This document shows positions 50,301-64,000 of a stretch of DNA of 64,000 nucleotides, piece after piece. The notes below the pieces were generated by a model. It saw nothing but the letters and a program-made list of their open reading frames with translations. It was not told where the DNA came from and searched no databases. The first letter of the stretch is position 1. Each line of letters starts with the position of its first letter. Source of the stretch: Buttiauxella noackiae ATCC 51607. Lineage in GTDB: Bacteria > Pseudomonadota > Gammaproteobacteria > Enterobacterales > Enterobacteriaceae. Location: the NCBI RefSeq assembly GCF_001654865.1, contig NZ_LXEO01000003.1, positions 1 to 64,000 on the forward strand, in the 5' to 3' direction. Made by a program: the position numbers and the translations under genes.

Positions 50301-50427
50301 CACGCAGCAATTTATAGTTGCGTGTTTCCGCGAGCGCCATTTTCGGTGCAAAACCAAGAGCGGCTACTGTTGTCCCTGCCATCCCGCCTGCACAGATTTT
50401 AAAAAACTTTCTGCGACTGACGTCCAT
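47377..50427 (-). CDS. fdnG: Formate dehydrogenase-N catalytic selenoprotein FdnG
   Basis: FdnG is the periplasmic molybdenum catalytic subunit that oxidises formate in nitrate respiration. Reading the TGA at 49837-49839 as selenocysteine gives 1,016 residues with Sec at 197 in the conserved context NQARV[11 protein letters not shown] (E. coli: Sec196 of 1,015). The N-terminus has the twin-arginine signal [13 protein letters not shown] [4Fe-4S] motif with cysteines near 50, 53, 57 and 93 follows, then the bis-MGD domains. ATG 50427 was chosen because the Tat signal starts there. An automatic caller would split it into two pieces (50427-49837 and 49788-47377). Confidence 0.97.
49799..49839 (-). 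promoter_or_regulatory. Selenocysteine TGA codon and SECIS hairpin in fdnG
   Basis: Immediately after the in-frame TGA the mRNA reads CACGGACCAACGGTAGCAAG, then TCTTGCTCC. The AGCAAG/CTTGCT pair forms the apical stem of the bacterial SECIS that binds SelB. The sequence is nearly the same as the E. coli fdnG SECIS region. Confidence 0.88.
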
Positions 50428-50732
50428 CCTAACCTCATTGTTATGACGTATGAATGACGGCGAAAATAGCAACTAAAAAAGAAGGATTATTGAGTAAAAT
50501 CAAATCGCTAAACATTGGGTAACAAACCGCTACTTAATGAGTAGAGTTTTGTTTTTTTTAATAACCATAAATAGAGTGTGTGCATTTACTGTGCGGAGTA
50601 AGGCCGTTTTGCCTGGTATTTGCCGGATGGAAAGGGATTGACTCCTGACAGCCGCGCGCTAACTTGCTATAAAAATCAGACTAAAACAAAAGCTGTATCG
50701 CTAACACTTCAGACACACAATCAGGATTCACT
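50428..50732 (-). promoter_or_regulatory. fdnGHI promoter with FNR-like and NarL-like sites
   Basis: On the minus strand TTGATTTTACTCAA (50490-50503) is a near-consensus FNR site (TTGAT-N4-ATCAA). TATTTT at 50463-50468 is a fitting -10, which puts the FNR site about 40 bases before the start of transcription, as for class II activation. Farther upstream TACTCATTA (near 50541-50549) and TACCCAA resemble NarL heptamers. E. coli fdnG is controlled in the same way by anaerobiosis and nitrate. The rest of the interval, towards the amidase gene, shows no other clear signal. Confidence 0.7.
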
Positions 50733-51632
50733 ATGTTAAAAATTGCCAACACCCAGGTCATTTACGCTATGAGCCGTGAAAACGCGCCTGTTGCGACGAT
50801 TTCAACCAATACAGACGTCAGCTTTGCTACCTGCGACTGCTTTTCTGATCAGATTCAGACGGCTGATGCTGTATTTAACCAGCTTGACTGGCAGCGCATT
50901 AACCCCGCCACCGGCCCGGTGTTTATTGAAGGCGCACAGCCAGGTGATGTGCTGAAAGTTGAAATTAAAAGCATCGAGCTACGTGGCAATCAGGCGGTGA
51001 TGGTGACTGCTCCACAACTTGGCGTGATTGGTGATGAACTTACCGAACCGCGCATTTTGGTGGTGCCGATTGATAACGGTGAAGCACAATTGCCTGGTGG
51101 GGTGAGCGTGCCGATTAACCCGATGATTGGCGTAATCGGTGTAGCACCTGCGGGTGAGGCGATTTCTTGCGGTACGCCGGATAGCCACGGCGGCAATATG
51201 GATTGCAAGATGATCACCGCCGGTAGCACCCTCTATTTGCCGGTTAATGTCGAAGGGGCGTTATTTGCCTTGGGGGATCTGCATGCGGCAATGGGCGATG
51301 GGGAAGTGTCGGTGTGTGGCCTGGAAGTGGCTGGTGATGTGGTGGTGAATCTTAGCGTGATTAAAAACCGCCGCTTACCAACGCCAATGCTGGAAAACGG
51401 TGACTCCATCTTCACGCTGGCATCAGCATTAACGCTGGACGACGCTGCCGCACTTGCTACGCGCAATATGGCGCACTTTATTGCCGACAACACTGATGTG
51501 ACATTGCCTGACGCCATCAACCTGCTGAGCATCAGCGGTGATTTGCAGATTTGCCAGGTAGTTGACCCACTGAAAACCTGCCGCTTTGCGCTGCCAAAAC
51601 GTGTGGCGGAGCAGCTGAAGCTGAAGATTTAA
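50733..51632 (+). CDS. Acetamidase/formamidase-family protein
   Basis: The 299-residue product belongs to the FmdA/AmdA amidase fold, which hydrolyses formamide or short amides to ammonia and the acid. Characteristic segments are GPVFIEGAQPGDVLKVEI near 61-78, TPDSHGGNMDCK near 148-159 and LGDLHAAMGDGEVS near 182-195; these carry the metal and substrate ligands. It is divergent from fdnG and convergent with the AllS-like regulator gene. Exact substrate unknown: formamide, acetamide or a ureido compound are possible. No partner subunit is visible. Confidence 0.87.
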   Translation: MLKIANTQVIYAMSRENAPVATISTNTDVSFATCDCFSDQIQTADAVFNQLDWQRINPATGPVFIEGAQPGDVLKVEIKSIELRGNQAVMVTAPQLGVIGDELTEPRILVVPIDNGEAQLPGGVSVPINPMIGVIGVAPAGEAISCGTPDSHGGNMDCKMITAGSTLYLPVNVEGALFALGDLHAAMGDGEVSVCGLEVAGDVVVNLSVIKNRRLPTPMLENGDSIFTLASALTLDDAAALATRNMAHFIADNTDVTLPDAINLLSISGDLQICQVVDPLKTCRFALPKRVAEQLKLKI

Positions 51633-51642
51633 TAAGTTTGCA

Positions 51643-51671
51643 GGGTGGACGAGCGTACGCGACATCCACCT
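51643..51671. repeat. REP-like palindrome between amidase and LysR genes
   Basis: GGGTGGACGAGCG and the inverted CGACATCCACC make a single palindromic unit of the family seen elsewhere in the window, between two convergent genes. Confidence 0.6.
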
Positions 51672-51693
51672 TTGTTTCTCGACGTGTTATTGC

Positions 51694-52623
51694 TCAATCC
51701 CGATGCAACAAATCCTGATAAATCTCCGTCAGCAACCCGCCCGGCGCAAACTGCTTTTTAATCCAGCGGGTTACCTGCCCGGTGGCGGCGTGCTGGGTTG
51801 CCAGCAGCATTCGTGAATCCTGGCGTGGGTTGTTTATCTGGCGTGTCACCAACAGGCCGCTATCCTGAGCCTCGCGCACCATATAGCTCGGTAAAAAACC
51901 AACGCCTTCTCCCAGAATCTGGCACTGACACTTGGTGTTGAAGTCGGGCACCAGAATCGCTTCTTGCCCATGCAGCAGCCATCCCACCTTTTTATTGAGC
52001 GTCAGCGCCGTGTCTTCAACCATGATATTGGGATACAGGCGCAGCTGGCTTTCAGAAATGGGCTCCGGCATAAATGCCAGCGGGTGGGTTGGGGCGATAG
52101 CAAATTCCCAGTGAATCGCGCCGATTTCCGTGTAATCAATCCCACCACCGTCGAGCAACGTATCCGGCGCACCAATCGCAATATTTGCCTGGTTATTGAT
52201 AATTGAGTCCCACACCCCGTTGTACACCTCGGTGGTGATAGTAATCAGGCAGGTAGGGAACTGCTTTTTGAGTATTTGCAGCAGCTTTGCCGTGTGGCGC
52301 GGGGTGTAAAGCAGTTGGTTGATGCAGATACGTACCTTCACCTCAATGCCTTGCGAGATGGTATCAACACCGCGTTTTATGGCATGGAAATCGTTAAGCA
52401 GTTCGGTCGCTTTGCGATAGAAATAGAAACCGGATTCGGTCAGTTCAATACTGCGGGTATTGCGCACAAACAGCACCACATCAAGGTACGTCTCAATCCG
52501 CTTAATGGTGTAGCTGATGGCGGAGGTGGTGACATCCAGTTCGATCGCGGCCTTACTAAAACTTGAAAGCCGCGCCGTGGTGGTGAAAGCCAGCAGGTTC
52601 TCTTCGGTAAAAATGGAATTCAT
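51694..52623 (-). CDS. LysR-family regulator, AllS-like
   Basis: The 309-residue protein resembles E. coli AllS, the activator of anaerobic allantoin catabolism genes, in both the winged helix (FSKAAIELDVTTSAISYTIKRIE near 22-44, FVRNTRSIELT) and the effector domain (VYNGVWDSIINNQ, NIMVEDTALTLNKKVGW, GVGFLPSYM). Start at 52623 has GGGAG with a 6-base spacer. It is divergent from the ankyrin-DUF2877-fdrA operon across about 390 bases and is the natural candidate to control it. Identity to AllS looks moderate, so the effector may differ. Confidence 0.88.
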   Translation of the reverse strand: MNSIFTEENLLAFTTTARLSSFSKAAIELDVTTSAISYTIKRIETYLDVVLFVRNTRSIELTESGFYFYRKATELLNDFHAIKRGVDTISQGIEVKVRICINQLLYTPRHTAKLLQILKKQFPTCLITITTEVYNGVWDSIINNQANIAIGAPDTLLDGGGIDYTEIGAIHWEFAIAPTHPLAFMPEPISESQLRLYPNIMVEDTALTLNKKVGWLLHGQEAILVPDFNTKCQCQILGEGVGFLPSYMVREAQDSGLLVTRQINNPRQDSRMLLATQHAATGQVTRWIKKQFAPGGLLTEIYQDLLHRD

Positions 52624-53017
52624 GCGCCACTCCCGTCGGTCGGATAAGTGCAGCGTCATCCGACAGCTACCCAATCCTATTGTTGAATGTATTTGTATTC
52701 CTTATGATCCGCGACTTTTACTTGAACCATATTTAACACTACCGTTACAACTGATTTGAAGAGCATCACACTTCTTGAATCTCATTTATCCCGCTATCTG
52801 CAAGGGCTGAAGGCGTTCCTCATAGTGAGAGATAAAGGGCGCTGAAAGCTCTTCTATCATAGGTAAAAGATTGCTCTATCGCACATTTTGCTCACATTGT
52901 TGAAAGTTATTCAACAATGCTGTCATTAACGATGAATGAATTTTAAACGGATGTTAAAGCGGTCATAGTGTTGCTATTCTCAATTCATCAGAAATAGCAA
53001 AGTATGGGAGTATGGAT
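52624..53017. promoter_or_regulatory. Divergent regulatory region of the fdrA-like cluster
   Basis: It contains a REP-like unit at 52635-52665 and a perfect 10-bp inverted repeat CATTGTTGAA-AGTTA-TTCAACAATG at 52895-52919, a candidate operator. A TATTCT -10-like hexamer lies at 52975-52980 (inside GTTGCTATTCT) before the ankyrin gene. An alternative GG-N10-GC spacing (52961-52974) hints weakly at sigma 54. Both are by eye. Confidence 0.5.
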
Positions 53018-53623
53018 ATGTCTCAGAAAGAACTTATTGCAGAATTTCTAAGTGCAGCAGAGCAGGGGCATCTGGAAAATCTAAAACAATGTCTCAGTGA
53101 TGGTGCAGATATTAACGCCACCAATCGCCAGGGGCGTACCGCAATTACACTGGCCAGCCTTCACAAAAAATATGACTGTGTGGAATATTTAATTGGAGCC
53201 GGTGCTGATATCAATAAACAAGATCAAACCTGTTTTAATCCCTTCTTGCTGAGTTGTCTTAATAACGACCTGACATTATTACGTTTGGTATTACCAGCAA
53301 ATCCCGATCTGAATTGTTTATCCCGCTTTGGTGGCGTGGGAATTACTCCTGCCAGCGAAAAAGGTCACGTTGAAATTGTCCGTGAGTTAGTTACACGCAC
53401 TGAAATTAACGTTAACCACACTAATTTTGTAGGTTGGACGCCATTGCTTGAAGCCATCGTGCTCAATGATGGTGGGGCGAAACAGCAAGAGATCGTCAAA
53501 CTACTGCTCGATCACGGTGCCAACCCGCACATGACCGATAAATATGGCAAATCGCCACTGTCTCTTGCGCGTGAAAAAGGTTACCACGAGATTGCCGAGC
53601 TGCTGGTTAACGCCGGGGCCTGA
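53018..53623 (+). CDS. Ankyrin-repeat protein heading the fdrA-like operon
   Basis: The 201-residue cytosolic protein has five to six ankyrin repeats. Typical helices with LxxAAxxGHLE and the GADIN/GANPH turn are visible (DGADINATNRQGRTAITLAS, GAGADINKQDQ, ASEKGHVEIVRELV, DHGANPHMTDKYGKSPLSLA). There is no signal peptide or membrane segment. GGGAG sits 7 bases before ATG 53018; ATG 53012 is too close to it. It is the first gene of the operon, with the DUF2877 gene starting within ~15 bases of its stop. A role in binding or regulating the carbamoyltransferase subunits is an inference from position. Confidence 0.87.
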   Translation: MSQKELIAEFLSAAEQGHLENLKQCLSDGADINATNRQGRTAITLASLHKKYDCVEYLIGAGADINKQDQTCFNPFLLSCLNNDLTLLRLVLPANPDLNCLSRFGGVGITPASEKGHVEIVRELVTRTEINVNHTNFVGWTPLLEAIVLNDGGAKQQEIVKLLLDHGANPHMTDKYGKSPLSLAREKGYHEIAELLVNAGA

Positions 53624-53630
53624 ACAGGAG

Positions 53631-54558
53631 ATGCACTATCGCCGGATATCTTCAGCGGCAGTGCCTTTTTGCACAAACGGCAGATAGCGCTTTTTTCGCC
53701 CCGGATTTATACGGTGAAACAAAAGGTTATGTTGAGCAGGTGTTTGACCGGGCGGTGAATATTCAGCTCCCTGCCAGGCAACAAATCTTCACTCTGCTCA
53801 GTACCGATTGTGATAACGCACCAAATAGCTGTCGTTTAGCAGTAGAGCATTGTCAGAACCATTTTAAGCCCGGTGAACGGGTTAGTTTTCACAGTAACGG
53901 CATTGATATTGGCACAGATAAGCGCATCGATTTCTCGCGCTGTACACGCTGGGAACCTGAAGCGCTTTTTCTAAGCCACACACGAATAAAACAGACCGAC
54001 TGGCAAAACCTTGCACAAATGACACAGGCCAGTGTCATACAAAGTTCGTCACTATTTTATTTTCATGGCGATAATATTTTTTACCAGGAAACGAGTCGCC
54101 TGCTGCAATTACACCGCAAGCAGCTTATATCAGCGCTAAATAAAGGGAATTGCGCTGCGATTGAAAATGAAATAAGTGGGTTGCTGGGTTTAGGTATTGG
54201 GCTGACACCATCCGGTGATGATTATCTGGCGGGATTAAGTGCGGTTTTATTTATTGCCGGGCACCCCGCGCGGAAATATCGTGAGGTTTTTATTTCCGTG
54301 TTGGAGAGAGAAAAGCATAAAACCACGCAGCTAAGCGCTATTACGCTGCGTGAAGCTATTGATCAACGTTATCGTGAAACTATTTATGGTTTTATTTATC
54401 AGGTGGTCAATGGTGATTTAGACAATATTCAGCGGTCTATTAACGAAATTAAAAAAATAGGGTCAAGTTCAGGATGCGACATGCTTTGCGGCATGGCGGA
54501 TGCCTTCTTTTTGACCCGAAATAACGGAGGAAATTATGTCGACCAGGATTGTGATTAA
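53631..54558 (+). CDS. DUF2877 protein (AllH-like) with disrupted start
   Basis: The product corresponds to E. coli YlbF/AllH, a subunit of oxamate carbamoyltransferase. Conserved points are VFDRAVNI and LGLGIGLTPSGDDYLAGL (a GLTPS-DD motif also present in AllH), then GCDMLCGMADAFFL at the end. AGGAG at 53626-53630 directly precedes ATG 53631, but that frame meets a stop after 18 codons. Skipping the single C after the ATG restores a continuous frame: M-TIAGYLQRQCLFAQTADSAFF into the main body. So either one base has been inserted, or translation begins at ATC 53638 (7 bases after AGGAG), or at GTG 53740 with loss of 36 residues. Its stop overlaps fdrA by 23 bases. Confidence 0.8.
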
Positions 54559-56086
54559 AAAGAATACCTATTTTGATTCTGTCTCACTGATGTCTATTTC
54601 AACCAAAGCCAACCAGCTTGAGGGTGTGGAACAGGCGTTTGTCGCGATGGCGACCGAGATGAACAAAGGGGTACTGAAAAACCTCGGCTTGTTAAACGAC
54701 GAGCTGGAACAGGCGAAAAACGGCGACCTGATGATTGTGATTAAAGGCGCGAGCGATACGGCGAACGACGCCACGCTTGAAGCCATTGAAGGGCTCTTCA
54801 CCCGCAAAGACAGCGGTAGCTCACGTCACGAAGCGCGTTACGCAACCCTTGCTAGTGCACATAACAATATCCCGGAAACTAACCTTGCGGTGATTTCCGT
54901 CAACGGCGCATTTGCCGCCCGTGAAGCGCGTCAGGCTCTGGAAAATGATCTCAACGTGATGCTGTTTTCCGATAACGTTTCTCTTGATGACGAACTGGCG
55001 CTCAAGCAACTCGCTCACAGCAAAGGCTTGCTGATGATGGGGCCGGACTGCGGCACTGCAATTATCAACGGTGCCGCGCTGTGCTTTGGCAACGCTGTGC
55101 GCCGTGGTTCGATTGGTATCGTTGGTGCATCCGGTACTGGCAGCCAGGAATTGAGCGTGCGCATTCATGAGTTTGGCGGCGGTATTTCACAACTCATCGG
55201 CACCGGCGGGCGCGATTTAAGCGAGAAAATCGGCGGCATCATGATGCTCGATGCAATCCACATGCTGGAAGATGACGCGCAAACTGAAGTGATTGTTCTG
55301 GTTTCCAAGCCACCAGCTGAAGCCGTAGCACGTAAAGTGCTGGAGAGGGCCAAAGCTTGCCGCAAACCGGTGGTAGTTTGCTTCCTCGGTACTACAGACG
55401 CTCGTGAAGATGAAGCAGGTTTGCAGTTTGCCCGTGCGACGAAAGAAGCCGCGCTGAAAGCCGTTCTGCTGACCGGAATTAAAAAAGAGTCACTGGACTT
55501 ACACCCGCTCAACTGGCCGTTGATTGAAGAAGTCCGTGCGCGCATGAAACCTGAGCAAAAGTACATTCGTGCGCTGTTCTGTGGCGGCACGCTGTGTGAC
55601 GAAGCGATGTTTGCGGCACTGGAAAAATACCCGGACGTTTACAGCAATATCCAGCCGAATCCTGAATACCGCCTCAAAGACGTGAATGTCAGCATCGCCC
55701 ACACCTTCCTCGATTTTGGCGATGACGATTTCACCAACGGCAAACCGCACCCGATGATTGACCCAACCAACCGTATTAGTCGCCTGTTGCAGGAAGCGCG
55801 TGACCCGGAAGTTGGCGTGATTGTTATGGACTTCGTCCTGGGCTTTGGCTCCCATGAGGACCCGGTTGGTGTGATGCTTGACGCCATCAAAGAAGCGAAA
55901 GCCATTGCTGCCCGTGAAGAGCGCAACCTGGAAATTCTGGGCTACGTGTTGGGCACCGATTTGGATACCCCTTCGCTTGAAAAGCAGTGCCAGATGCTGA
56001 CGGATGCGGGCGTTATCTGGGCAAGTAGCAGCACCAACACCGGTTTGCTTGCGCGTGAGTTTGTTTGCAAGGAGAAAGCACAATGA
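54536..56086 (+). CDS. fdrA: FdrA-family protein (AllF-like, acyl-CoA synthetase fold)
   Basis: FdrA/AllF is reported as a subunit of oxamate carbamoyltransferase in E. coli and has the fold of succinyl-CoA ligase alpha. The 516-residue product shows the SucD-like region GPDCGTAIINGAALCFGN, GIVGASGTGSQELSVRIHEF and IGTGGRDLSEKIGG at about 165-240, then PPAEAVARKVLERA and a second Rossmann-like domain. GGAGG lies five bases before ATG 54536. It overlaps DUF2877 upstream by 23 bases and DUF1116 downstream by 4 bases (ATGA), so the three subunits are tightly coupled. It is about 40 residues shorter than E. coli FdrA. Confidence 0.92.
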   Translation: MSTRIVIKKNTYFDSVSLMSISTKANQLEGVEQAFVAMATEMNKGVLKNLGLLNDELEQAKNGDLMIVIKGASDTANDATLEAIEGLFTRKDSGSSRHEARYATLASAHNNIPETNLAVISVNGAFAAREARQALENDLNVMLFSDNVSLDDELALKQLAHSKGLLMMGPDCGTAIINGAALCFGNAVRRGSIGIVGASGTGSQELSVRIHEFGGGISQLIGTGGRDLSEKIGGIMMLDAIHMLEDDAQTEVIVLVSKPPAEAVARKVLERAKACRKPVVVCFLGTTDAREDEAGLQFARATKEAALKAVLLTGIKKESLDLHPLNWPLIEEVRARMKPEQKYIRALFCGGTLCDEAMFAALEKYPDVYSNIQPNPEYRLKDVNVSIAHTFLDFGDDDFTNGKPHPMIDPTNRISRLLQEARDPEVGVIVMDFVLGFGSHEDPVGVMLDAIKEAKAIAAREERNLEILGYVLGTDLDTPSLEKQCQMLTDAGVIWASSSTNTGLLAREFVCKEKAQ

Positions 56087-57495
56087 GTTTATTCACCCAA
56101 CCGCTAAACGTGATTAACGTTGGCATTGCAATGTTCAGCGACGATTTGAAAAAGCAGAGCGTTCCCGTTACACAACTGGACTGGACGCCACCGGGGCAGG
56201 GTAATTTAGCGGTCGTTAACGCGCTAGACTCCATCGCCGCTCCGGCACTTGCCGAAAAAGTAGCTGCGGCCAACAAACAGGCCGTCGAGCGCATCATCCA
56301 GTCACAGCCTGTTCTGGTGGGTTACGACCAGGCGATTAACGTGGTTCCGGGCATGACGCGTAACACCATTCTTCACGCCGGGCCGCCTGTTGCCTGGGAA
56401 GATATGTGTGGTGCGATGAAAGGCGCTGTCACCGGAGCGCTGGTGTTTGAAGGCCTGGCGGCGAATATTGATGAGGCCGCGCAGCTGGCAGCATCAGGTG
56501 AGATTATCTTCTCGCCTTGCCACGAACACGACTGCGTGGGTTCGATGGCGGGCGTGACTTCTGCCTCGATGTTTATGCATATCGTCGAAAACAAAACTTA
56601 CGGCAACCGCGCTTATACCAACCTCAGCGAGCAGATGGCGAAGATCTTGCGCATGGGCGCTAACGACCAGAGTGTTATCGACCGCCTTTTCTGGATGCGT
56701 GATGTGCTCGGCCCAATGCTGCGAGATGCCATGAAGCTTGCGGGTGAAATCGACCTGCGTTTGATGCTGGCGCAAGCACTGCATATGGGCGACGAGTGCC
56801 ACAACCGCAATAACGCGGGCACCACATTGCTGATTCAGGCGCTCACGCCGTGGATCATTCAGACCAACTTCACCGTCGCACAACAGAAAGAAGTGTTCGA
56901 TTTTGTCGCCAGCAGCGACTACTTCTCCGGCCCAACGTGGATGGCGATGTGCAAAGCGGCAATGGATGCGGCGCACGGCATCGAATACAGCACCGTGGTT
57001 ACTACAATGGCGCGTAACGGCGTGGAGTTTGGGCTGCGTGTTAGTGGCCTGCCGGGGCAGTGGTTTACCGGCCCGGCTCAGCAGGTGATTGGCCCGATGT
57101 TTGCGGGTTATAAACCGGCAGATTCTGGCCTGGATATCGGCGATAGCGCGATTACTGAAACCTACGGTATCGGCGGATTTGCGATGGCAACGGCTCCGGC
57201 AATTGTGGCGTTGGTTGGGGGCACCGTGGATGAAGCTATCGATTTCTCGCGCCAGATGCGTGAGATAACGCTGGGTGAAAACCCGAACGTCACCATTCCA
57301 TTGCTGTCGTTTATGGGTATTCCAACCGCCATTGATATTACGCGTGTGGGCAACAGCGGCATTTTGCCAGTTATCAACACGGCCATTGCCCACAAAGATG
57401 CGGGCATCGGCATGATTGGCGCCGGGATTGTCCATCCGCCGTTTGAATGTTTTGAGAAGGCTCTGCTCGCCTTTGGTGAGCGTTACTCTTTCTGA
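56083..57495 (+). CDS. DUF1116 protein (AllG-like carbamoyltransferase subunit)
   Basis: The 470-residue protein matches the DUF1116 family, of which E. coli YlbE/AllG is a member and an oxamate carbamoyltransferase subunit. Segments LVGYDQAINVVPGM near 85-98, SPCHEHDCVGSMAG near 145-158, GDECHNRNNAG near 235-245 and FTGPAQQVIGPMFAGY are rich in H, D, C and N and likely form the active centre. AAGGAG precedes ATG 56083, which overlaps the fdrA stop. The permease gene starts 11 bases later. Confidence 0.9.
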   Translation: MSLFTQPLNVINVGIAMFSDDLKKQSVPVTQLDWTPPGQGNLAVVNALDSIAAPALAEKVAAANKQAVERIIQSQPVLVGYDQAINVVPGMTRNTILHAGPPVAWEDMCGAMKGAVTGALVFEGLAANIDEAAQLAASGEIIFSPCHEHDCVGSMAGVTSASMFMHIVENKTYGNRAYTNLSEQMAKILRMGANDQSVIDRLFWMRDVLGPMLRDAMKLAGEIDLRLMLAQALHMGDECHNRNNAGTTLLIQALTPWIIQTNFTVAQQKEVFDFVASSDYFSGPTWMAMCKAAMDAAHGIEYSTVVTTMARNGVEFGLRVSGLPGQWFTGPAQQVIGPMFAGYKPADSGLDIGDSAITETYGIGGFAMATAPAIVALVGGTVDEAIDFSRQMREITLGENPNVTIPLLSFMGIPTAIDITRVGNSGILPVINTAIAHKDAGIGMIGAGIVHPPFECFEKALLAFGERYSF

Positions 57496-57506
57496 GGGAT
57501 ACCCCG

Positions 57507-59045
57507 ATGACAAACGTTAAGCTTGAGTGGAAACGCGGTGACTGGGCGGCATATTTCGGGTTGATGACTAACAACCTGACCAACTTGCTGACCATGATGG
57601 GGTTACTCATTTTTGTGGTGGGTATCCCGACAGAAATTGTTTACGGGCGCATTGCGCCAGCCTTCGGGCTGGCGGTGCTGGTCGCGAGCGTTTGCTACGC
57701 CTGGTTTGGTTTGCAACTGGCAAAAGAGACAGGGCGCAAAGATGTGACGGCGCTGCCCTCCGGGCCAAGCGCACCGTCAATCTTTACCGTGACGTTTTTG
57801 GTGCTGATGCCGGTCTACCAGCAAACTGGCGACGCTGAGTTTGCGATTCAGATTGGCCTGGTGTGGTGTTTTGTTGAAGCGATGATTCTGGTGGGCGGTT
57901 CGTTCCTTGGCGAAACCATCCGTAAGATGATCCCACGTACTGTATTGCTTTCGTGTTTATCAGGTTTAGGTCTGCTGTTGCTGGCGATGAACCCGATGTT
58001 GCAGGCATTTGAAGCACCTACAGTTTCCTTCATCGTTCTGCTGCTTATCTTCATCAACTGGTTTGGTAAAAAGCCGATTTTTGCCCGTATTCCAACCGGC
58101 TTATTGCTGTTGGTCGCGGGTACTGCGCTGGCGTGGATTTCCGGCCTGCAAAGCCCGGAAGCGATTAAAGCGTCGATGTCATCATTCGGTTTTAACCCGC
58201 CATCGATTCATGTTGATAGCTTCCTGCAAGGCTTACCTCATGCGCTGCCTTACCTGGCATCGGCCGTTCCGTTGGGGCTTGCGAACTACATTTTCGACCT
58301 GGAAAACATTGAGAGTGCCCACGCAGCGGGTGATGAGTACAACACCCGTAAAGTGATGCTGACCAATGGCCTGGCTTCAACGCTCGGTTGTCTGATGGGT
58401 AACCCGTTCCCGGTGACGGTGTACGTTGGTCATGCGGGCTGGAAGGCGATGGGCGCGAGTATCGGCTACACGCTGGCGTCAGGTGTGACGATGTTTATTG
58501 TGCCGCTATTTGGCCTCGGTGCATTCATGCTGGCCATTATTCCGATGACTGCCATTGTGCCGATTCTGGTGTTTATCGGCGTGGTAACGGCAAACCAGGT
58601 GGTGCGAGAAACGCCGAAAATAGAGGTGCCGGTTATCTTCATCTGTCTGTTCCCGTGGATAGCAAACTGGGCGCTGACCATGGTGAATAGCGTGATGGCA
58701 GCGGCCGGGACATCGGCTGCGAAAATCGGCCCGGAAGCGCTGGCTCATAAAGGGGTGTTTTACCAGGGACTGGTGCATTTGGGTAACGGCGCACCGCTCG
58801 CCAGCATGTTGTGGGGTTGCGTCGCAATCTTCGCGATTATCAACAAACCGTTACGCGGCGCGGTTGCGGCGGTAGTCGGGGCGTTGCTGGCTCTGTTTGG
58901 CGTGATTCATGCGCCGGTGGTCGGTTTTGCGCAGGGCAGTTCGCTGATGTTTGTCACCGCCTATTTGATGATGGGCGCGATGTTTGTCGTGAAGCATGTG
59001 CTCGACCGTCGTGAAGCGGCATCTGAGGTTGTGACTTCTGTTTAA
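57507..59045 (+). CDS. NCS2/AzgA-like permease
   Basis: The 512-residue membrane protein has 12-14 hydrophobic helices. Its pattern (LMTNNLTNLLTMMGLLIFVV near 17-36, DVTALPSGPSAPSIFT near 78-93, DLENIESAHAAGDEY, NPFPVTVYVGHAGWKAMG near 300-317) resembles nucleobase or xanthine/uracil permease-type carriers. Located directly between the carbamoyltransferase subunits and carbamate kinase, it probably imports the substrate of the pathway, a ureido or cyclic amide compound. Substrate unknown. GAGG precedes the ATG. Confidence 0.85.
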   Translation: MTNVKLEWKRGDWAAYFGLMTNNLTNLLTMMGLLIFVVGIPTEIVYGRIAPAFGLAVLVASVCYAWFGLQLAKETGRKDVTALPSGPSAPSIFTVTFLVLMPVYQQTGDAEFAIQIGLVWCFVEAMILVGGSFLGETIRKMIPRTVLLSCLSGLGLLLLAMNPMLQAFEAPTVSFIVLLLIFINWFGKKPIFARIPTGLLLLVAGTALAWISGLQSPEAIKASMSSFGFNPPSIHVDSFLQGLPHALPYLASAVPLGLANYIFDLENIESAHAAGDEYNTRKVMLTNGLASTLGCLMGNPFPVTVYVGHAGWKAMGASIGYTLASGVTMFIVPLFGLGAFMLAIIPMTAIVPILVFIGVVTANQVVRETPKIEVPVIFICLFPWIANWALTMVNSVMAAAGTSAAKIGPEALAHKGVFYQGLVHLGNGAPLASMLWGCVAIFAIINKPLRGAVAAVVGALLALFGVIHAPVVGFAQGSSLMFVTAYLMMGAMFVVKHVLDRREAASEVVTSV

Positions 59046-59050
59046 AAAAA

Positions 59051-59127
59051 TGGCGGATGACGCGGTGCTTATCCGCCCTACGTAAATCATCAATCGTAGG
59101 GTGGATAAACCGCAGGTGTCATCCACC
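59051..59127. repeat. REP/BIME-like palindromes between permease and carbamate kinase genes
   Basis: GGCGGATGACGC...TTATCCGCCCTACG followed by CGTAGGGTGGATAAACCGC...ATCCACC form two inverted units inside the operon. Similar elements within operons can change the relative expression of flanking genes. Confidence 0.75.
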
Positions 59128-59152
59128 GGCCTTGCCCTAAAGGATAAAAATA

Positions 59153-60103
59153 ATGAAACAACTCGTGGTCGTGGCAATTGGCGGCAACAGCATCATCAAA
59201 GACAACGCCAGCCAGTCGGTTGAACATCAGCAAATTGCGGTTAAAGAAGTGGCTCAGACGGTGCTGGAAATGCTCTCGTCGGATTACGACATCGTACTGA
59301 CGCACGGCAATGGCCCGCAGGTGGGGCTGGATCTGCGCCGTGCGGAAATCGCCCATGAGAAAGAGGGGTTGCCGCTCACACCGCTGGCTAACTGTGTGGC
59401 AGATACCCAGGGTGGCATCGGCTATCTGATTCAGCAGGCGCTGAATAACCAGTTGGGTAAACACGGAGACAAAAAAGCGGTCACCGTGATCACTCAAGTG
59501 GAAGTGGACAAAAACGACCCAAACTTCACCCATCCCACCAAACCGATCGGTGCGTTCTTTAGCGAACAACAGTGCGAAGCGCTGAAAGTCGCCCATCCGG
59601 ACTGGCAGTTTGTTGAAGATTCCGGGCGCGGCTATCGTCGGGTTGTGGCGTCTCCTGAGCCAAAACGTATTGTTGAAGCAGATGCGATTAGCGCGCTGAT
59701 TAAGCAAGGTTTTGTGGTGATTGGCGCAGGCGGTGGTGGCATTCCGGTGATTCGTAGCGATCAGGGTGATTACCAGAGCGTGGATGCGGTTATCGATAAA
59801 GATCTTTCTACCGCGCTGCTGGCTCGCGAAGTAAATGCTGACATTCTGGTTATCACCACTGGTGTGGAGAAAGTGTGTATTCACTTTGGTAAACCAGAGC
59901 AACGAGAACTTGATGAAGTCACGGTTGAACAGATGGCGCATTTCAGTGAAGAGGGCCATTTCCCGCCGGGCAGCATGCTGCCAAAAATCACCGCAAGCCT
60001 TGCGTTCCTGCGCAATGGCGGCAAACGCGTGATTATCACCACGCCTGAAAAATTACCTGCGGCCTTACGCGGCGAGACGGGCACTCATATTGTTAATGCT
60101 TAA
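59153..60103 (+). CDS. Catabolic carbamate kinase (AllK/ArcC-like)
   Basis: Carbamate kinase converts carbamoyl phosphate and ADP to ATP, ammonia and carbon dioxide. The 316-residue product is an amino-acid-kinase fold protein with VAIGGNSI near 8-15, THGNGPQVG near 50-58, the phosphate loop GAGGGGIPV near 192-200, IDKDLSTALLA near 215-225 and GSMLPKI near 275. E. coli YbcF/AllK, next to fdrA, has the same role. AAGGA precedes the ATG. It makes the pathway ATP-yielding. Confidence 0.95.
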   Translation: MKQLVVVAIGGNSIIKDNASQSVEHQQIAVKEVAQTVLEMLSSDYDIVLTHGNGPQVGLDLRRAEIAHEKEGLPLTPLANCVADTQGGIGYLIQQALNNQLGKHGDKKAVTVITQVEVDKNDPNFTHPTKPIGAFFSEQQCEALKVAHPDWQFVEDSGRGYRRVVASPEPKRIVEADAISALIKQGFVVIGAGGGGIPVIRSDQGDYQSVDAVIDKDLSTALLAREVNADILVITTGVEKVCIHFGKPEQRELDEVTVEQMAHFSEEGHFPPGSMLPKITASLAFLRNGGKRVIITTPEKLPAALRGETGTHIVNA

Positions 60104-60118
60104 GAGTGGGAGAACTTA

Positions 60119-61507
60119 ATGAATAATGCAGAAAAAAGCCGCCGTGAATTTTTAAGTGGTGGCGGCAAAGTGGCTGCTGCCTGCGCACTCTTTGGCGCGA
60201 CTGGCTCAATGGCGTATGCTGCGAAACCAGCCTCCCTTACCTGTGAGACGGACAATCGCATGAGCGCCATTAAAGAATCGCATTACTACCTCGACAACGT
60301 GCTGCTGGAGGCGGGTTTTAACCGCGAAGGGCAGACTATTGTTGGTACGCAAACCGAGCTGAAAACGCTGGAAATTAAAGACGGCAAAATTGCGGCACTG
60401 CTCGCAAATAAACAGCATCCCGATGCCACCCTTGCCCATTACGATGCGTCCGGGAAACTGCTGCTGCCTGCGATGCGCGATATGCATATCCATCTCGATA
60501 AAACCTTCTACGGTGGCCCGTGGCGTGTACACAACCGCCCGGCGGGAACCACCATTCTGGACATGATTGCCCTTGAGCAAAAATTGCTGCCAGAACTGCA
60601 ACCGGTCACTCAGGAGCGAGCAGGAAAACTGATTGATTTGATTCAGTCGAAAGGCTCGACTATCGCCCGAAGCCATTGCAATGTTGAGCCCGTTTCCGGG
60701 CTGAAAAACCTCGAAAATCTGCAAGCGGTTCTGGAACGCCGTAAGTCTGGTTTTAGCTGTGAAATTGTCGCGTTTCCTCAGCATGGTTTGCTGCACTCTA
60801 ACTCCGTTGCGTTGATGCGCGATGCAATGCAAGCGGGCGCTCACTACGTGGGTGGGCTTGACCCGACTAACGTTGATGGGGCGATGGAAAAATCTTTAGA
60901 TGCCATGTTCCAGATAGCTATCGACTACAAGAAAGGTGTTGATATTCACCTGCATGAAACAAGCCCTGCGGGGATTGCCGCAGTGAATTACATGGTTGAA
61001 ACGGTGGAGAAAACCCCTGAGCTGAAAGGCCAATTGACCATTAGCCACGGTTTTGCACTGGCGATGATGAACGAACAAGAGGTTGATGCGATTGCTACAC
61101 GAATGGCGGCGCAACAAATTACTATCGCGTCAACCGTGCCGATTGGCACCATGCATATGCCACTCAAGCAGTTACAAGAGAAGGGCGTGTTTGTGATGAC
61201 GGGCACCGACAGCGTGATCGACCACTGGTCGCCGTATGGCCTGGGCGACATGTTGGAGAAAGCCAACCTTTATGCGCAGCTCTATATGCGTGTCAGTGAA
61301 TTGAATCTTTCACGATCCCTTGCGATTGCCACCGGCAACGTGCTGCCGCTTAATGACAATGGCGAGCGTGTGTGGCCAAAAGCGCAGGATGAAGCAAGCT
61401 TTGTGCTGGTGGATGCCTCATGTTCTGCCGAAGCCGTGGCACGCATCTCTCCACGAACCGCGACCTTCCATAAAGGGAATCTGGTCTGGGGTGAACTTAG
61501 CGTGTAG
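60119..61507 (+). CDS. Tat-exported CodA-like amidohydrolase
   Basis: The 462-residue protein begins with a twin-arginine signal (SRREFLSGGG, RR at 8-9, cleavage near MAYA-A at 34) and continues as an amidohydrolase of the cytosine deaminase group. Metal-site motifs in order are DMHIHLDKT (H123, H125), DIHLHE near 276-281, ISHGFAL near 310 and TGTDSVIDHW with the catalytic aspartate near 363. These correspond to those of CodA (HIHLD, HCDE, SHTTA, HDDVFDPW). It would act folded in the periplasm. It starts 15 bases after the kinase gene. Substrate unknown; a cyclic ureide or imide is plausible. Confidence 0.88.
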   Translation: MNNAEKSRREFLSGGGKVAAACALFGATGSMAYAAKPASLTCETDNRMSAIKESHYYLDNVLLEAGFNREGQTIVGTQTELKTLEIKDGKIAALLANKQHPDATLAHYDASGKLLLPAMRDMHIHLDKTFYGGPWRVHNRPAGTTILDMIALEQKLLPELQPVTQERAGKLIDLIQSKGSTIARSHCNVEPVSGLKNLENLQAVLERRKSGFSCEIVAFPQHGLLHSNSVALMRDAMQAGAHYVGGLDPTNVDGAMEKSLDAMFQIAIDYKKGVDIHLHETSPAGIAAVNYMVETVEKTPELKGQLTISHGFALAMMNEQEVDAIATRMAAQQITIASTVPIGTMHMPLKQLQEKGVFVMTGTDSVIDHWSPYGLGDMLEKANLYAQLYMRVSELNLSRSLAIATGNVLPLNDNGERVWPKAQDEASFVLVDASCSAEAVARISPRTATFHKGNLVWGELSV

Positions 61508-61529
61508 TGCCTGGCGCTTAGTGAAAAAC

Positions 61530-61563
61530 ATCCTGCATAGGGACATTCTGTGCAGGATTTTTT
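61530..61563 (+). terminator. Intrinsic terminator after the amidohydrolase gene
   Basis: ATCCTGCA (61530-61537) and TGCAGGAT (61551-61558) form an 8-bp stem followed by six T residues. It closes the fdrA-like operon, 22 bases after the stop codon. Confidence 0.88.
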
Positions 61564-61785
61564 AATGAATGAATTTCTGCATTAAATAGATAGAACTCCA
61601 TATATTTTTTAACTCCACGTTATAAAAATCTTCGATTTAACCAAGCTCTTTCCTCGTATTCCCATTGTATCAATATTTTATATAATAAATATTGGATGAT
61701 AACTAAAAATAAACAATCATAATCAATTCCTGTAACACCAATAATAATCTTACCTACCTGCAAATCGCACAGAGGATCTCCTCTT

Positions 61786-63096
61786 ATGTCTACAGAACTC
61801 GAAGCACGGGTGCTGCGAAAAATAACGCTTCGCATCATTCCCTTTATTATGCTGCTCTATTTTATTGCTTTTCTGGATAGGGTGAATATTGGTTTCGCAG
61901 CATTAACAATGAACCAGGAGTTAGGTTTTTCTCCCACAGTTTTTGGTATCGGCGCGGGAATATTTTTCCTCGGTTATTTTTTATTTGAAGTTCCGTCTAA
62001 CCTTATCTTGAATAAAGTTGGGGCGAGGATTTGGATTGCCCGAGTCATGATTACCTGGGGGCTGGTTTCAGGGGCAATGGCTTTTGTTCAGGGCACGACC
62101 AGTTTCTATATTTTACGTTTCTTACTTGGTGTGGCTGAAGCCGGATTTTTCCCTGGTATAATTCTGTACTTAAGCTTTTGGTTCCCCATGAAACGACGTG
62201 CTCAAGTAACGGCTATTTTCATGGCTGCAGCACCTTTATCGACTGCACTGGGTTCACCCATTTCCGGGGCATTGCTGGAATTACACGGTTTCCTTGGTTG
62301 GTCTGGCTGGAAATGGATGTTTGTACTTGAGGCGATCCCCGCAGTGATTTTAGGTTGCGTGGTGTTGTTCTGGCTTACCGATCGCCCTGCTAAAGCAAAA
62401 TGGTTAACTGATGAAGAGCGCAACTGGCTTATGCAGACTCTTGCTGCTGAACAAAGTACTAAAGCGGGTTCCGCTCATGTGAGTGTCTGGAAAGGTCTGG
62501 CAGACAAACGCGTTATTGCCTTGTCGTTGGTCTATTTCGGGACTTCTGCCGGGCTCTATACCCTGGGGATCTGGTCACCGCAGATAATCAAAGCATTTGG
62601 CATGAGTTCCTTGCAAGTCGGGCTATTAAACGCCATTCCTGCCATTATTGCGGTGGTCGCGATGGTGCTTTGGGCGCGGCATTCGGATAAAAAAGTGGAA
62701 CGTACCTGGCATATTATCGGTGCTTGTATGCTGGCGGCAGTAGGGTTGATTTATGCTGGTATGGTTACCACTGTGGTGACAGCAATTATCGCCTTAACTT
62801 TGGTTAACGTCGGTATCAGTGCCTCCAAGCCGCCATTGTGGAGTATGCCAACGATGTTTTTGTCAGGCTCTGCAGCAGCGGCAGGGATCGCCACGATAAA
62901 CTCGATTGGTAATCTGGGCGGGTTCGTCGGACCCGTGATGATTGGTGTGATTAAAGAACACACGGGGAGTTTCACTGGCGGGCTGTTGTTTGTTGCCGCG
63001 TTACTGTGTTTGTCATCGATTCTGGTTTGGTTACTGTCAAAGAGTGCCGAGCGGCAGAATAGTGCTTATCAAGCCCCACATTCTAAATCATCGTGA
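61786..63096 (+). CDS. MFS transporter, anion:cation symporter (ACS) type
   Basis: The 436-residue protein has twelve hydrophobic helices and the ACS-family features LDRVNIGFAALTMNQELG near 30-47, FFLGYFLFEVPSNLIL near 60-75 and LLGVAEAGFFPGIILYLS near 112-129. Such carriers import organic acids such as glucarate, phthalate or allantoate-like anions. It has its own upstream region of about 220 bases after the operon terminator and is followed by a hairpin and a second, related transporter. GAGG lies about ten bases before ATG 61786. The substrate is not known. Confidence 0.88.
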   Translation: MSTELEARVLRKITLRIIPFIMLLYFIAFLDRVNIGFAALTMNQELGFSPTVFGIGAGIFFLGYFLFEVPSNLILNKVGARIWIARVMITWGLVSGAMAFVQGTTSFYILRFLLGVAEAGFFPGIILYLSFWFPMKRRAQVTAIFMAAAPLSTALGSPISGALLELHGFLGWSGWKWMFVLEAIPAVILGCVVLFWLTDRPAKAKWLTDEERNWLMQTLAAEQSTKAGSAHVSVWKGLADKRVIALSLVYFGTSAGLYTLGIWSPQIIKAFGMSSLQVGLLNAIPAIIAVVAMVLWARHSDKKVERTWHIIGACMLAAVGLIYAGMVTTVVTAIIALTLVNVGISASKPPLWSMPTMFLSGSAAAAGIATINSIGNLGGFVGPVMIGVIKEHTGSFTGGLLFVAALLCLSSILVWLLSKSAERQNSAYQAPHSKSS

Positions 63097-63444
63097 ATGC
63101 GAAACGGCTACCGACTTAGGTAGCCGTTCTCATTAATCGATTAAATCTCTGATGTTTGAAGCCTATCACAAATACAAACTTTAGCGTCCAGGCTAACTCT
63201 CCATATATAAACAGGCATTTTAACTGGAATTCTTCTTAGCATAAGTGTTAATTACTCTAGCTATATGATCTATCATGCTTTTTTAGAGGCGACTCTTATC
63301 TGTTAGCATTATTTCATTTTTTTATATAATCACGACTGGATGATTCATCTCGATCGTCAGCGCATATTTCAATGACTGGCCTGGTGCTATTTAGACTTAT
63401 AACAACAGGTGTCCGATTATTTATTAAAATAATGGAAATATGCT
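63097..63444 (+). other. Intergenic region between the two MFS genes with hairpin
   Basis: AACGGCTACC and GGTAGCCGTT (63103-63128) form a perfect 10-bp stem followed by CTCATT, the likely terminator of the first transporter gene. The remaining AT-rich sequence to 63430 contains no obvious gene or repeat; AATGGAAA at 63431-63438 provides a Shine-Dalgarno for the next gene. Confidence 0.7.
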
Positions 63445-64000
63445 ATGACTCATTCATTAGAACATCTTACCCTCAAAAAAATAACCTGGCGCATAGTCCC
63501 TTTTGTTATGTTTGCCTATTTCATAGCCTTCTTTGACCGAATAAATATTGGTTTTGCAGCATTAACCATGAATCAGGATTTAGGTTTTTCTTCAACTGTA
63601 TTTGGTGTTGGTGCAGGTATGTTTTTTATTGGTTATTTTCTGACTGATATTCCTTCTAATATAATATTGCAAAAAGTGGGGCCACGGATTTGGCTGGCTC
63701 GAATTATGGTGAGTTGGGGAGCGATTGCTGCCTGTATGATGTTTGTCGAGACCGCAACCGGGTTCTATATTTTGCGTTTTCTGTTGGGCGTTGCAGAGGC
63801 GGGTTTTTTCTCAGGAATTATTCTCTATTTAAGTACCTGGTTTCCTGTTAAGCGTCGCGCCCAAGTTATCGCATTTTTCATGGCGGCAGCGCCCATATCG
63901 GCAATGTTGGGTTCACCACTGGCTGGGACTATTTTGAGTTTACATGGCGCGTTAGGTTTGAAAGGTTGGCAACTCATGTTCTTAATTGATGCTGTTGCCG
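63445..64000 (+). CDS. MFS transporter, ACS type, partial (runs off the window)
   Basis: This is the N-terminal part of a second ACS-family transporter, open from ATG 63445 to the end of the window (185 codons). It begins MTHSLEHLTLKKITWRIVPF and keeps the same motifs as the preceding protein: FDRINIGFAALTMNQDLGFS, GYFLTDIPSN and LLGVAEAGFFSGIILYLSTW. The two look like diverged tandem duplicates. One notable difference is TDIPSN in place of FEVPSN. The stop codon lies outside the window. Confidence 0.87.
   Translation, partial: MTHSLEHLTLKKITWRIVPFVMFAYFIAFFDRINIGFAALTMNQDLGFSSTVFGVGAGMFFIGYFLTDIPSNIILQKVGPRIWLARIMVSWGAIAACMMFVETATGFYILRFLLGVAEAGFFSGIILYLSTWFPVKRRAQVIAFFMAAAPISAMLGSPLAGTILSLHGALGLKGWQLMFLIDAVA

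Follow-up and report, generated by a model that had tools for sequence, protein, structure and literature searches.

In Escherichia coli, AllF (FdrA), AllG, and AllH purified together have oxamate transcarbamylase (OXTCase) activity, for which all three genes are required (PMC11326118). In nitrifiers where biuH and allFGHK are neighbors, the AllFGH homologs have been read as oxalurate degradation (PMC12625717). The locus described here lies in the window, that is, the whole stretch of 64,000 nucleotides analyzed at the start of contig NZ_LXEO01000003.1 of Buttiauxella noackiae ATCC 51607. Positions 51694–61507 of the window are the Buttiauxella ortholog of the uncharacterized E. coli K-12 operon yahB-DEFG-IJ, together with a permease missing from K-12, here called PermW. 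The operon is therefore not new. We give a probability of roughly 0.55 to the reading that it encodes a self-contained pathway for a ureide, which would combine nitrogen scavenging with substrate-level phosphorylation.

A search of the open-access literature, a scope that leaves most subscription journals outside, found no function for yahEFGIJ. None is given in the available excerpts of PMC11326118, PMC12625717, PMC3364942, PMC12928451, PMC7549933, PMC5703782, PMC12535856, PMC7033237, and PMC3423039, the last of which includes yahI in a model as a putative carbamate kinase. A term search of what was accessible of PMC9843812 found no yah gene. The initial annotation of the window missed that this is a known orphan operon, that it is conserved over three phyla, and that the same genome holds a copy of biuret type.

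The yah Operon of Buttiauxella

The genes for AllH, FdrA, AllG, the permease, carbamate kinase, and an amidohydrolase with a twin-arginine translocation (Tat) signal follow each other in one direction, overlapping or separated by at most about 110 bases (Table 1). This is the operon that the initial annotation had described, and the ankyrin gene that it placed ahead of the operon and the AllS-like LysR gene diverging from it are also where it had put them. Identity with the K-12 proteins is 85% for YahB, 70% for YahD, 48% for YahE, 82% for YahF, 88% for YahG, 82% for YahI, and 76% for YahJ; YahF is 41% identical to K-12 FdrA/AllF, and YahG 46% to K-12 AllG. Over seven species pairs, the ratio of nonsynonymous to synonymous substitution rates (Ka/Ks) is 0.008–0.127 for all genes of the operon except yahE, the fastest-evolving one (0.13 and 0.30 in two pairs, the third not being computable). 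Because of these identities and low ratios, the gene cluster is not a product of chance. The GTG listed as the start of yahE is probably too late, as relatives align upstream of it. From 53608 to 53740 of the window, the frame is open ahead of the first ATG, GTG, or TTG, and the gene may begin with a rare start codon. Composition gives no support to the initial view of the cluster as an island, and this status was rejected, as the GC content is the same as in the flank (0.518, versus 0.525 for window positions 1–40000).

Gene order is common to Buttiauxella and K-12, and in both the same palindrome lies upstream of yahD. The K-12 operon differs by yahC, which sits between yahB and yahD, and by a tract of repeats (yahH), presumably repetitive extragenic palindromic (REP) elements, at the expected position of the permease. 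Among 5426 complete E. coli genomes, 5015 have DNA similar to part of the locus (any match, not all genes), and 138 have a homolog of the permease, which is plasmid-borne at 106 of 147 places. The one ColV plasmid examined, pAPEC-O2-211A-ColV (L226), carries a second yah set, with PermW and without YahJ. In another strain (L227), IS50R is inserted in the AllH gene of the chromosomal yah copy.

Table 1. Features of the yah locus and its neighbors (window coordinates)
Feature	Position	Strand	Basis
YahB-type LysR regulator, divergent	51694..52623	-	Pfam HTH_1 + LysR_substrate
Perfect palindrome ATTGTTGAA-N5-TTCAACAAT, presumed YahB operator	52896..52918	.	binding inferred
YahD, ankyrin-repeat protein	53012..53623	+	Pfam Ank_2
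YahE, AllH/DUF2877 subunit	53740..54558	+	PF11392, 96.6 bits
YahF, FdrA/AllF-type subunit	54536..56086	+	NF004760, 492.8 bits (cut-off 433)
YahG, AllG/DUF1116 subunit	56083..57495	+	PF06545, 301.9 bits
PermW, putative UraA-fold permease, remote NCS2 relative	57507..59045	+	profile comparison + AlphaFold model
YahI, carbamate kinase	59153..60103	+	NF009007, 592.6 bits (cut-off 266)
YahJ, predicted Tat-exported amidohydrolase, cytosine-deaminase/AtzC group	60119..61507	+	NF005312, 669.7 bits (cut-off 447)
Acetamidase/formamidase-family gene, neighbor, not part of the operon	50733..51632	+	PF03069
Two ACS-type MFS transporters, tartrate cluster, not part of the operon	61786..64000	+	TIGR00893, first 390.9 bits, just under cut-off 395

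YahB is 37% identical to AllS, and its score of 252.7 bits falls short of the 372 required by the AllS model. The 9-5-9 palindrome between yahB and yahD is the only match in the window (0 mismatches; the chance mean is 0.05 at up to three mismatches) and the only perfect site in the genome, where imperfect sites number 4, versus 3 for a reversed control pattern. It occurs at the equivalent place in K-12 and other enterics. Its exact 8-5-8 core is found in 10 of 237 loci, representing seven distinct genomes including this one and K-12, and near copies are found in others by an intergenic alignment that left out K-12, L068, and L171 (more than 700 bases). YahB may bind at this palindrome. An AllS operator shared with yah was rejected, as the best match in the all region of K-12 has three mismatches, which is equaled in 12 of 100 shuffles. 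Expression of yahD changes little with oxygen (fold changes of 1.25 and 1.09 in the excerpt of PMC7033237).

Three Clades of FdrA and AllG

The phylogenetic tree of joined FdrA and AllG shows three main clades with differing neighborhoods (57 rows from 56 loci, hand-chosen from 129 rows; 976 columns, midpoint-rooted). These are an allantoin clade (11 rows, support 100), a biuret-type clade (13 rows, support 100), and a yah clade of 29 rows (support 82, rising to 100 for 30 rows when the second copy of L086 is added). The proteins of the window fall in the yah clade, apart from the allantoin clade. Mean AllG identity is 73% within the yah clade and 44–47% to the other two. The underlying searches found AllG in 40 of 394 genomes of the order, 6 of 369 in a sample of the class, and 16 of 398 in a sample of the phylum, the samples overlapping; AllG open reading frames (ORFs) outside 380–620 aa or at 100 bits or less, such as the long frames of L094 and L095, were dropped before counting. 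These two frames, of about 1000 aa, are apparently FdrA-AllG fusions in allantoin-type clusters. Neighborhoods were compared over 54 regions from the AllG searches, both sets of this genome, and K-12; six of 47 AllG rows (G099, G130, G261, G299, G363, and G381) were not taken to this stage.

A comparison of the neighborhoods of FdrA and DUF1116, which the initial annotation had proposed, shows the yah clade accompanied by PermW, an ankyrin (or ankyrin-TPR) protein, carbamate kinase, and often a deaminase of one of two unrelated folds. Among AllG-derived loci, an ankyrin gene is present in all 12 where AllG is closest to YahG, versus none of the 39 other AllG rows. The AllFGH-AllK branch of E. 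coli has the three homologous subunits and carbamate kinase in common with yah, but it belongs to a separate clade and its neighbors are AllC, AllD, and AllE, whereas those of yah are the ankyrin protein, PermW, and YahJ; some genomes with yah also lack AllH. The sorting is not entirely clean. L085 and L105 have allantoin genes nearby yet stand outside the 11-row allantoin clade; the rows of L069, L077, and one of L086 within that clade are without AllC, AllD, or AllE at the threshold used; and 8 of the 24 AllG rows closest to the second copy of this genome lack the hydrolase typical of it (see following).

One residue is held at 95 positions of AllG and 76 of FdrA (at least 93% within each clade; 29, 13, and 11 rows, with four rows excluded), hence the three clades have core machinery in common. 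Another 31 positions of AllG are fixed within clades and different between them: yah stands alone at 15, allantoin at 10, and biuret at 2, and all three differ at 4. Six of the 31 lie at 284–292 (numbering of the 476-aa ORF), three of them yah-alone and three all-differing. These residues, especially 284–292, argue for an amide product other than oxamate, and the acceptor probably differs from oxamate; our leading guess for the substrate is an oxalurate-like acylurea other than oxalurate. One might suppose instead that yah handles oxalurate itself, or parabanate hydrolyzing to oxalurate, scavenged outside the cell, and so constitutes a stand-alone oxalurate pathway. Parabanate and oxalurate can exist outside cells because they are formed from urate by singlet oxygen (PMC5703782, in part), the core residues are those of AllFGH, and no allantoin genes would be needed. 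We consider this possible but unlikely, since at the 15 yah-alone positions the biuret-type and allantoin clades agree, and the deaminase would have no evident role. Furthermore, genomes with both sets keep separate types, side by side in Buttiauxella G112 (L064 and L065) and in Cytobacillus (L252 and L253, typed by best match and not in the tree).

Genome-wide (104 contigs, the genome being rated 100% complete), AllD has no match and no allantoinase passes its cut-off, the best scoring 26.8 versus 357.85 bits; AllA, AllC, and AllE were not searched at this scale. The absence of an allantoin pathway claimed at first thus holds for ureidoglycolate dehydrogenase (AllD) and allantoinase, its part concerning AllC lying outside the genome-wide search, and an allantoin operon elsewhere that depends on the yah copy was rejected. 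The search for homologs of the allantoin (all) genes elsewhere in the genome, also suggested at first, reveals a second AllFGH-like set on contig 58 (L004:5035-13253), where AllG is accompanied by FdrA, AllH, carbamate kinase, a permease, a cysteine hydrolase, and a 130-aa protein, between flanks that we take to be metE and udp from their sequences. The permease is nearest to the cytosine permease model (CodB-like), below its cut-off (148.3 of 326 bits). The closest PDB entry to the hydrolase is 6xix ("cysteine hydrolase"), presumably a triuret hydrolase, followed by the 6azo group and 6xjm ("biuret hydrolase"); its score against the BiuH model, 271.4 bits, is below the cut-off of 370. The 130-aa protein is similar to the C-terminal region of allophanate hydrolase, a full-length copy of which, over cut-off, is encoded on contig 14. 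From these similarities, the contig 58 set may convert biuret, carboxybiuret, or allophanate and phosphate to carbamoyl phosphate. Clusters of this biuret/triuret type have an AllFGH-type set, carbamate kinase, and a permease in common with yah; unlike yah, they have a cysteine hydrolase of the biuret/triuret-hydrolase family, of which there is none in the window cluster, and no ankyrin protein at 80 bits or more, and the copy in this genome has in addition the 130-aa protein. In the accessible part of its description, GR29 of E. coli BEN2908 resembles this type.

Permease, Deaminases, and Breadth of the yah Clade

PermW has no match in Pfam or NCBIfam at E ≤ 0.001, and none to PF00860 even at E ≤ 10, which distinguishes it from NCS2/SLC23 and SLC26 transporters. 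Its profile aligns with a six-sequence NCS2 profile at 94.5% probability (hhalign, E = 8e-8), with controls at 0.3 and 0.5% (NCS1), 6.4% (MFS), and 0.1% (AllG); profile tests with only two NCS2 and four NCS1 sequences were negative, and no PDB chain of UraA fold was matched by the sequence profile. The AlphaFold model (29 sequences, pLDDT 85.2, pTM 0.81) finds SVCT1, SLC26Dg, BicA, and UraA by Foldseek with probability 1.00, E from 2e-7 to 2e-6, and TM-scores of about 0.5–0.6. The predicted structure has short strands at 85–87 and 303–305 and the UraA-type fold of NCS2/SLC23 and SLC26 transporters. Profile comparison and model thus support PermW as a UraA-fold permease and remote relative of NCS2, and the label "NCS2-like" that it had been given is backed despite the lack of a PF00860 match.

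A search of the genome collection yielded 488 relatives of PermW, of which the best 80 were retained; since they are the best, these lean towards close relatives, and the PermW loci counted hereafter are these 80. The closest ones with names are from Buttiauxella (96–99%), and the others come from enterics, Aeromonas, Shewanella, Vibrio, Bosea, Ramlibacter, Rhodoferax, Azospirillum, Bacillota, and Actinomycetota. The ankyrin gene is present in 77 loci (it is missing in L207 and in L176 and L213, which are cut contigs), AllG in 76, FdrA and carbamate kinase in 74 each, AllH in 53 (at a weak threshold), and YahJ, with a threshold of 400 bits, in 46. The frequency of carbamate kinase supports the ureide pathway. 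It also speaks against the annotation of K-12 YahF as a "putative acyl-CoA synthetase", which has its CoA_binding and Ligase_CoA domains in its favor and would have the operon activate an acid with CoA. FdrA, once annotated in a similar way, has since been recognized as a subunit of OXTCase (PMC11326118), and we regard this alternative as very improbable.

The ankyrin protein is about 200 aa long in both enterics and Microbacterium, against 387–501 aa in many other genomes; the two long ones scanned with Pfam (L193 and L217) combine ankyrin and TPR repeats. Among Bacillota, the sets L248–L250 have no PermW and an NCS1 permease occupies its slot. In four sets (L190, L248, L249, and L250) the NCS1 permease is AllW-like; that of L190 has 432.5 bits against an allantoin permease cut-off of 620, and those of L248 and L250 match PF02133. 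PucR purine-catabolism regulators flank both Bacillota sets scanned for them (L190 and L250). One of the three sets without PermW, that in the Lysinibacillus genome of L207, brings ankyrin and the AllH, FdrA, and AllG subunits together with NCS1, carbamate kinase, a small deaminase, and an AllC-like hydrolase. In Paenibacillus (L202 and L222), an AllC-like carbamoylase as a substitute for AllFGH was rejected, since an AllG closest to YahG is found elsewhere in those genomes; in the genomes of L201, L202, L207, and L222, such AllG genes belong to sets like L248–L251 (assigned by best match; absent from the tree).

The nearest solved relatives of YahJ are PDB 6nbo, AtzC entries, and cytosine deaminase. 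It aligns with AtzC and bacterial cytosine deaminase, whose motifs H-x-H-L-D-K and H-L-H-E it shares (H-I-H-L-D-K and H-L-H-E are retained in nearly all orthologs listed), which suggests that it is a deaminase; it differs from them by its predicted export and its own NCBIfam subfamily, NF005312. A twin arginine is found near the N-terminus in all 46 orthologs of at least 400 bits in PermW loci (38 by script and 8 by eye), and E. coli YahJ is a predicted Tat substrate (PMC7549933). In the same excerpt, deletion of yahJ in the ExPEC strain PCN033 gives a competitive index of 0.697 (p 0.022), which concerns fitness, not function. A protein of cytidine-deaminase fold (149–162 aa) is found by yah-type sets in four Bacillota genomes (L201/L251, L248, L249, and L250) and four Microbacterium loci, five of these eight loci having been run through Pfam. 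The presence of two unrelated deaminase folds near the yah-type core suggests a deamination step.

A Candidate Pathway and Its Difficulties

In the pathway that we favor, whose steps, direction, and substrate are read from homology, YahJ would deaminate a small amino- or imino-heterocycle in the periplasm and PermW would import the product. YahE, YahF, and YahG would then move a carbamoyl group to phosphate (acylurea R-CO-NH-CO-NH2 + Pi -> carbamoyl phosphate + amide), on the model of AllFGH acting on oxalurate, and YahI would convert carbamoyl phosphate and ADP to ATP, CO2, and ammonia. YahB would control transcription at the palindrome, and the ankyrin protein YahD could be a partner of the soluble enzymes or of the permease, possibly as a scaffold for the labile carbamoyl phosphate. 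The initial annotation had likewise proposed an ATP-yielding route, independent of allantoin, for another imported compound. The route is supported by the lack of AllD and of an over-cut-off allantoinase, the separate clade, and the genomes carrying both sets. The flow could also be reversed, with carbamate kinase making carbamoyl phosphate and YahEFG building a ureide, as OXTCase was assayed kinetically on carbamoyl phosphate and oxamate, in a reaction given as reversible (PMC11326118). This seems most unlikely, as an importer, an exported hydrolase, and PucR or AllS-like regulators fit catabolism.

Several observations weigh against the proposed pathway. None of the yah proteins has a known activity. 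PermW is absent from K-12, and since a relative (37–41% identical) is present in 4 of 16 biuret-type loci (L088, L089, L104, and L109), it is not exclusive to the yah type. In PermW loci outside Enterobacterales, YahJ of at least 400 bits is confined to Aeromonas (L184), Gallibacterium (L205), and a single Neobacillus (L200); it is also missing from the enteric loci L181 and L188. It must also work without the core, because four genomes with YahJ over cut-off (G018, G097, G218, and G228) have no AllG match. A match to the cytidine-deaminase fold also lies near a biuret-type set (L081). Finally, PF11392 finds no match anywhere in the five Enterobacter-like genomes tested, all of which carry the operon; given that AllFGH needs three genes, the yah enzyme may work differently. 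This genus-group (g9) was called Enterobacter-like from named loci with the same layout (e.g., L158 and L163), and its sixth genome (G324), in which only a biuret-type set was found, has AllH. Aeromonas (L184), Wohlfahrtiimonas (L204), and Vibrio (G343, L080) have the operon without AllH and hold AllH elsewhere in the genome, so the subunit could act in trans. In the Enterobacter-like genomes, either YahFG suffices or another protein replaces AllH.

One could regard the enteric yah as the decaying relic of a formerly useful pathway, given the missing AllH of these five genomes, the repeats in place of PermW in K-12, and the IS50R insertion mentioned above. This is the least probable of the alternatives, in view of the Ka/Ks values of all genes but yahE, which include four pairs of operons without linked AllH whose other genes show purifying selection (0.022–0.127). 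The competitive index of the yahJ deletion, a conditional phenotype, likewise speaks against a relic. A PDB search with AllH finds no relative at E ≤ 1, and in Zophobihabitans entericus (L178:5967-8417) it is fused with FdrA in an 817-aa protein. The neighborhoods of YahJ without AllG (L131–L135) indicate no substrate; in one of them (L131:9491-12883), YahB, YahD, and YahJ occur together without the AllFGH core or a permease, and AhpC and AhpF genes follow YahJ.

The formamidase-family and ACS genes do flank the operon, as first described, but they are not parts of the system. Among the neighborhoods compared, the formamidase-like gene is matched only in its own genome, hence it is not a core gene and was rejected as the amidase for the released amide. 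After the ACS pair come genes for a LysR regulator, a tartrate dehydrogenase (scoring above the TIGR02089 cut-off), and a glycerate-kinase-like protein, and as members of a tartrate cluster the transporters were rejected as ureide carriers. Among PermW loci, both transporters are found only in L146 and L147; L064, which is the same contig as L146, has them too. Upstream, formate dehydrogenase-N alpha (window 47377–50472) is split in two frames (211 and 803 aa), which would fit a selenocysteine UGA.

A broader proposal, which we hold tentatively and at somewhat less than even odds, is that the yah clade represents a third, ancient pathway yielding carbamoyl phosphate, beside those that degrade allantoin and biuret, present in Pseudomonadota, Bacillota, and Actinomycetota and also on ColV plasmids. 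An amino-heterocycle, for example an oxidized purine fragment, would be salvaged by means of a deaminase acting outside the cytoplasm, permeases that form a new branch of the UraA-fold group, an enzyme for which AllH is dispensable, and an ankyrin or ankyrin-TPR organizer. The three clades also call for caution, as AllFGH homologs need not all mean oxalurate degradation. As a sister of oxamate transcarbamylase with a named permease, deaminase, and regulator, yah turns from an orphan operon of K-12 into a specific enzymatic question: which ureide gives carbamoyl phosphate.

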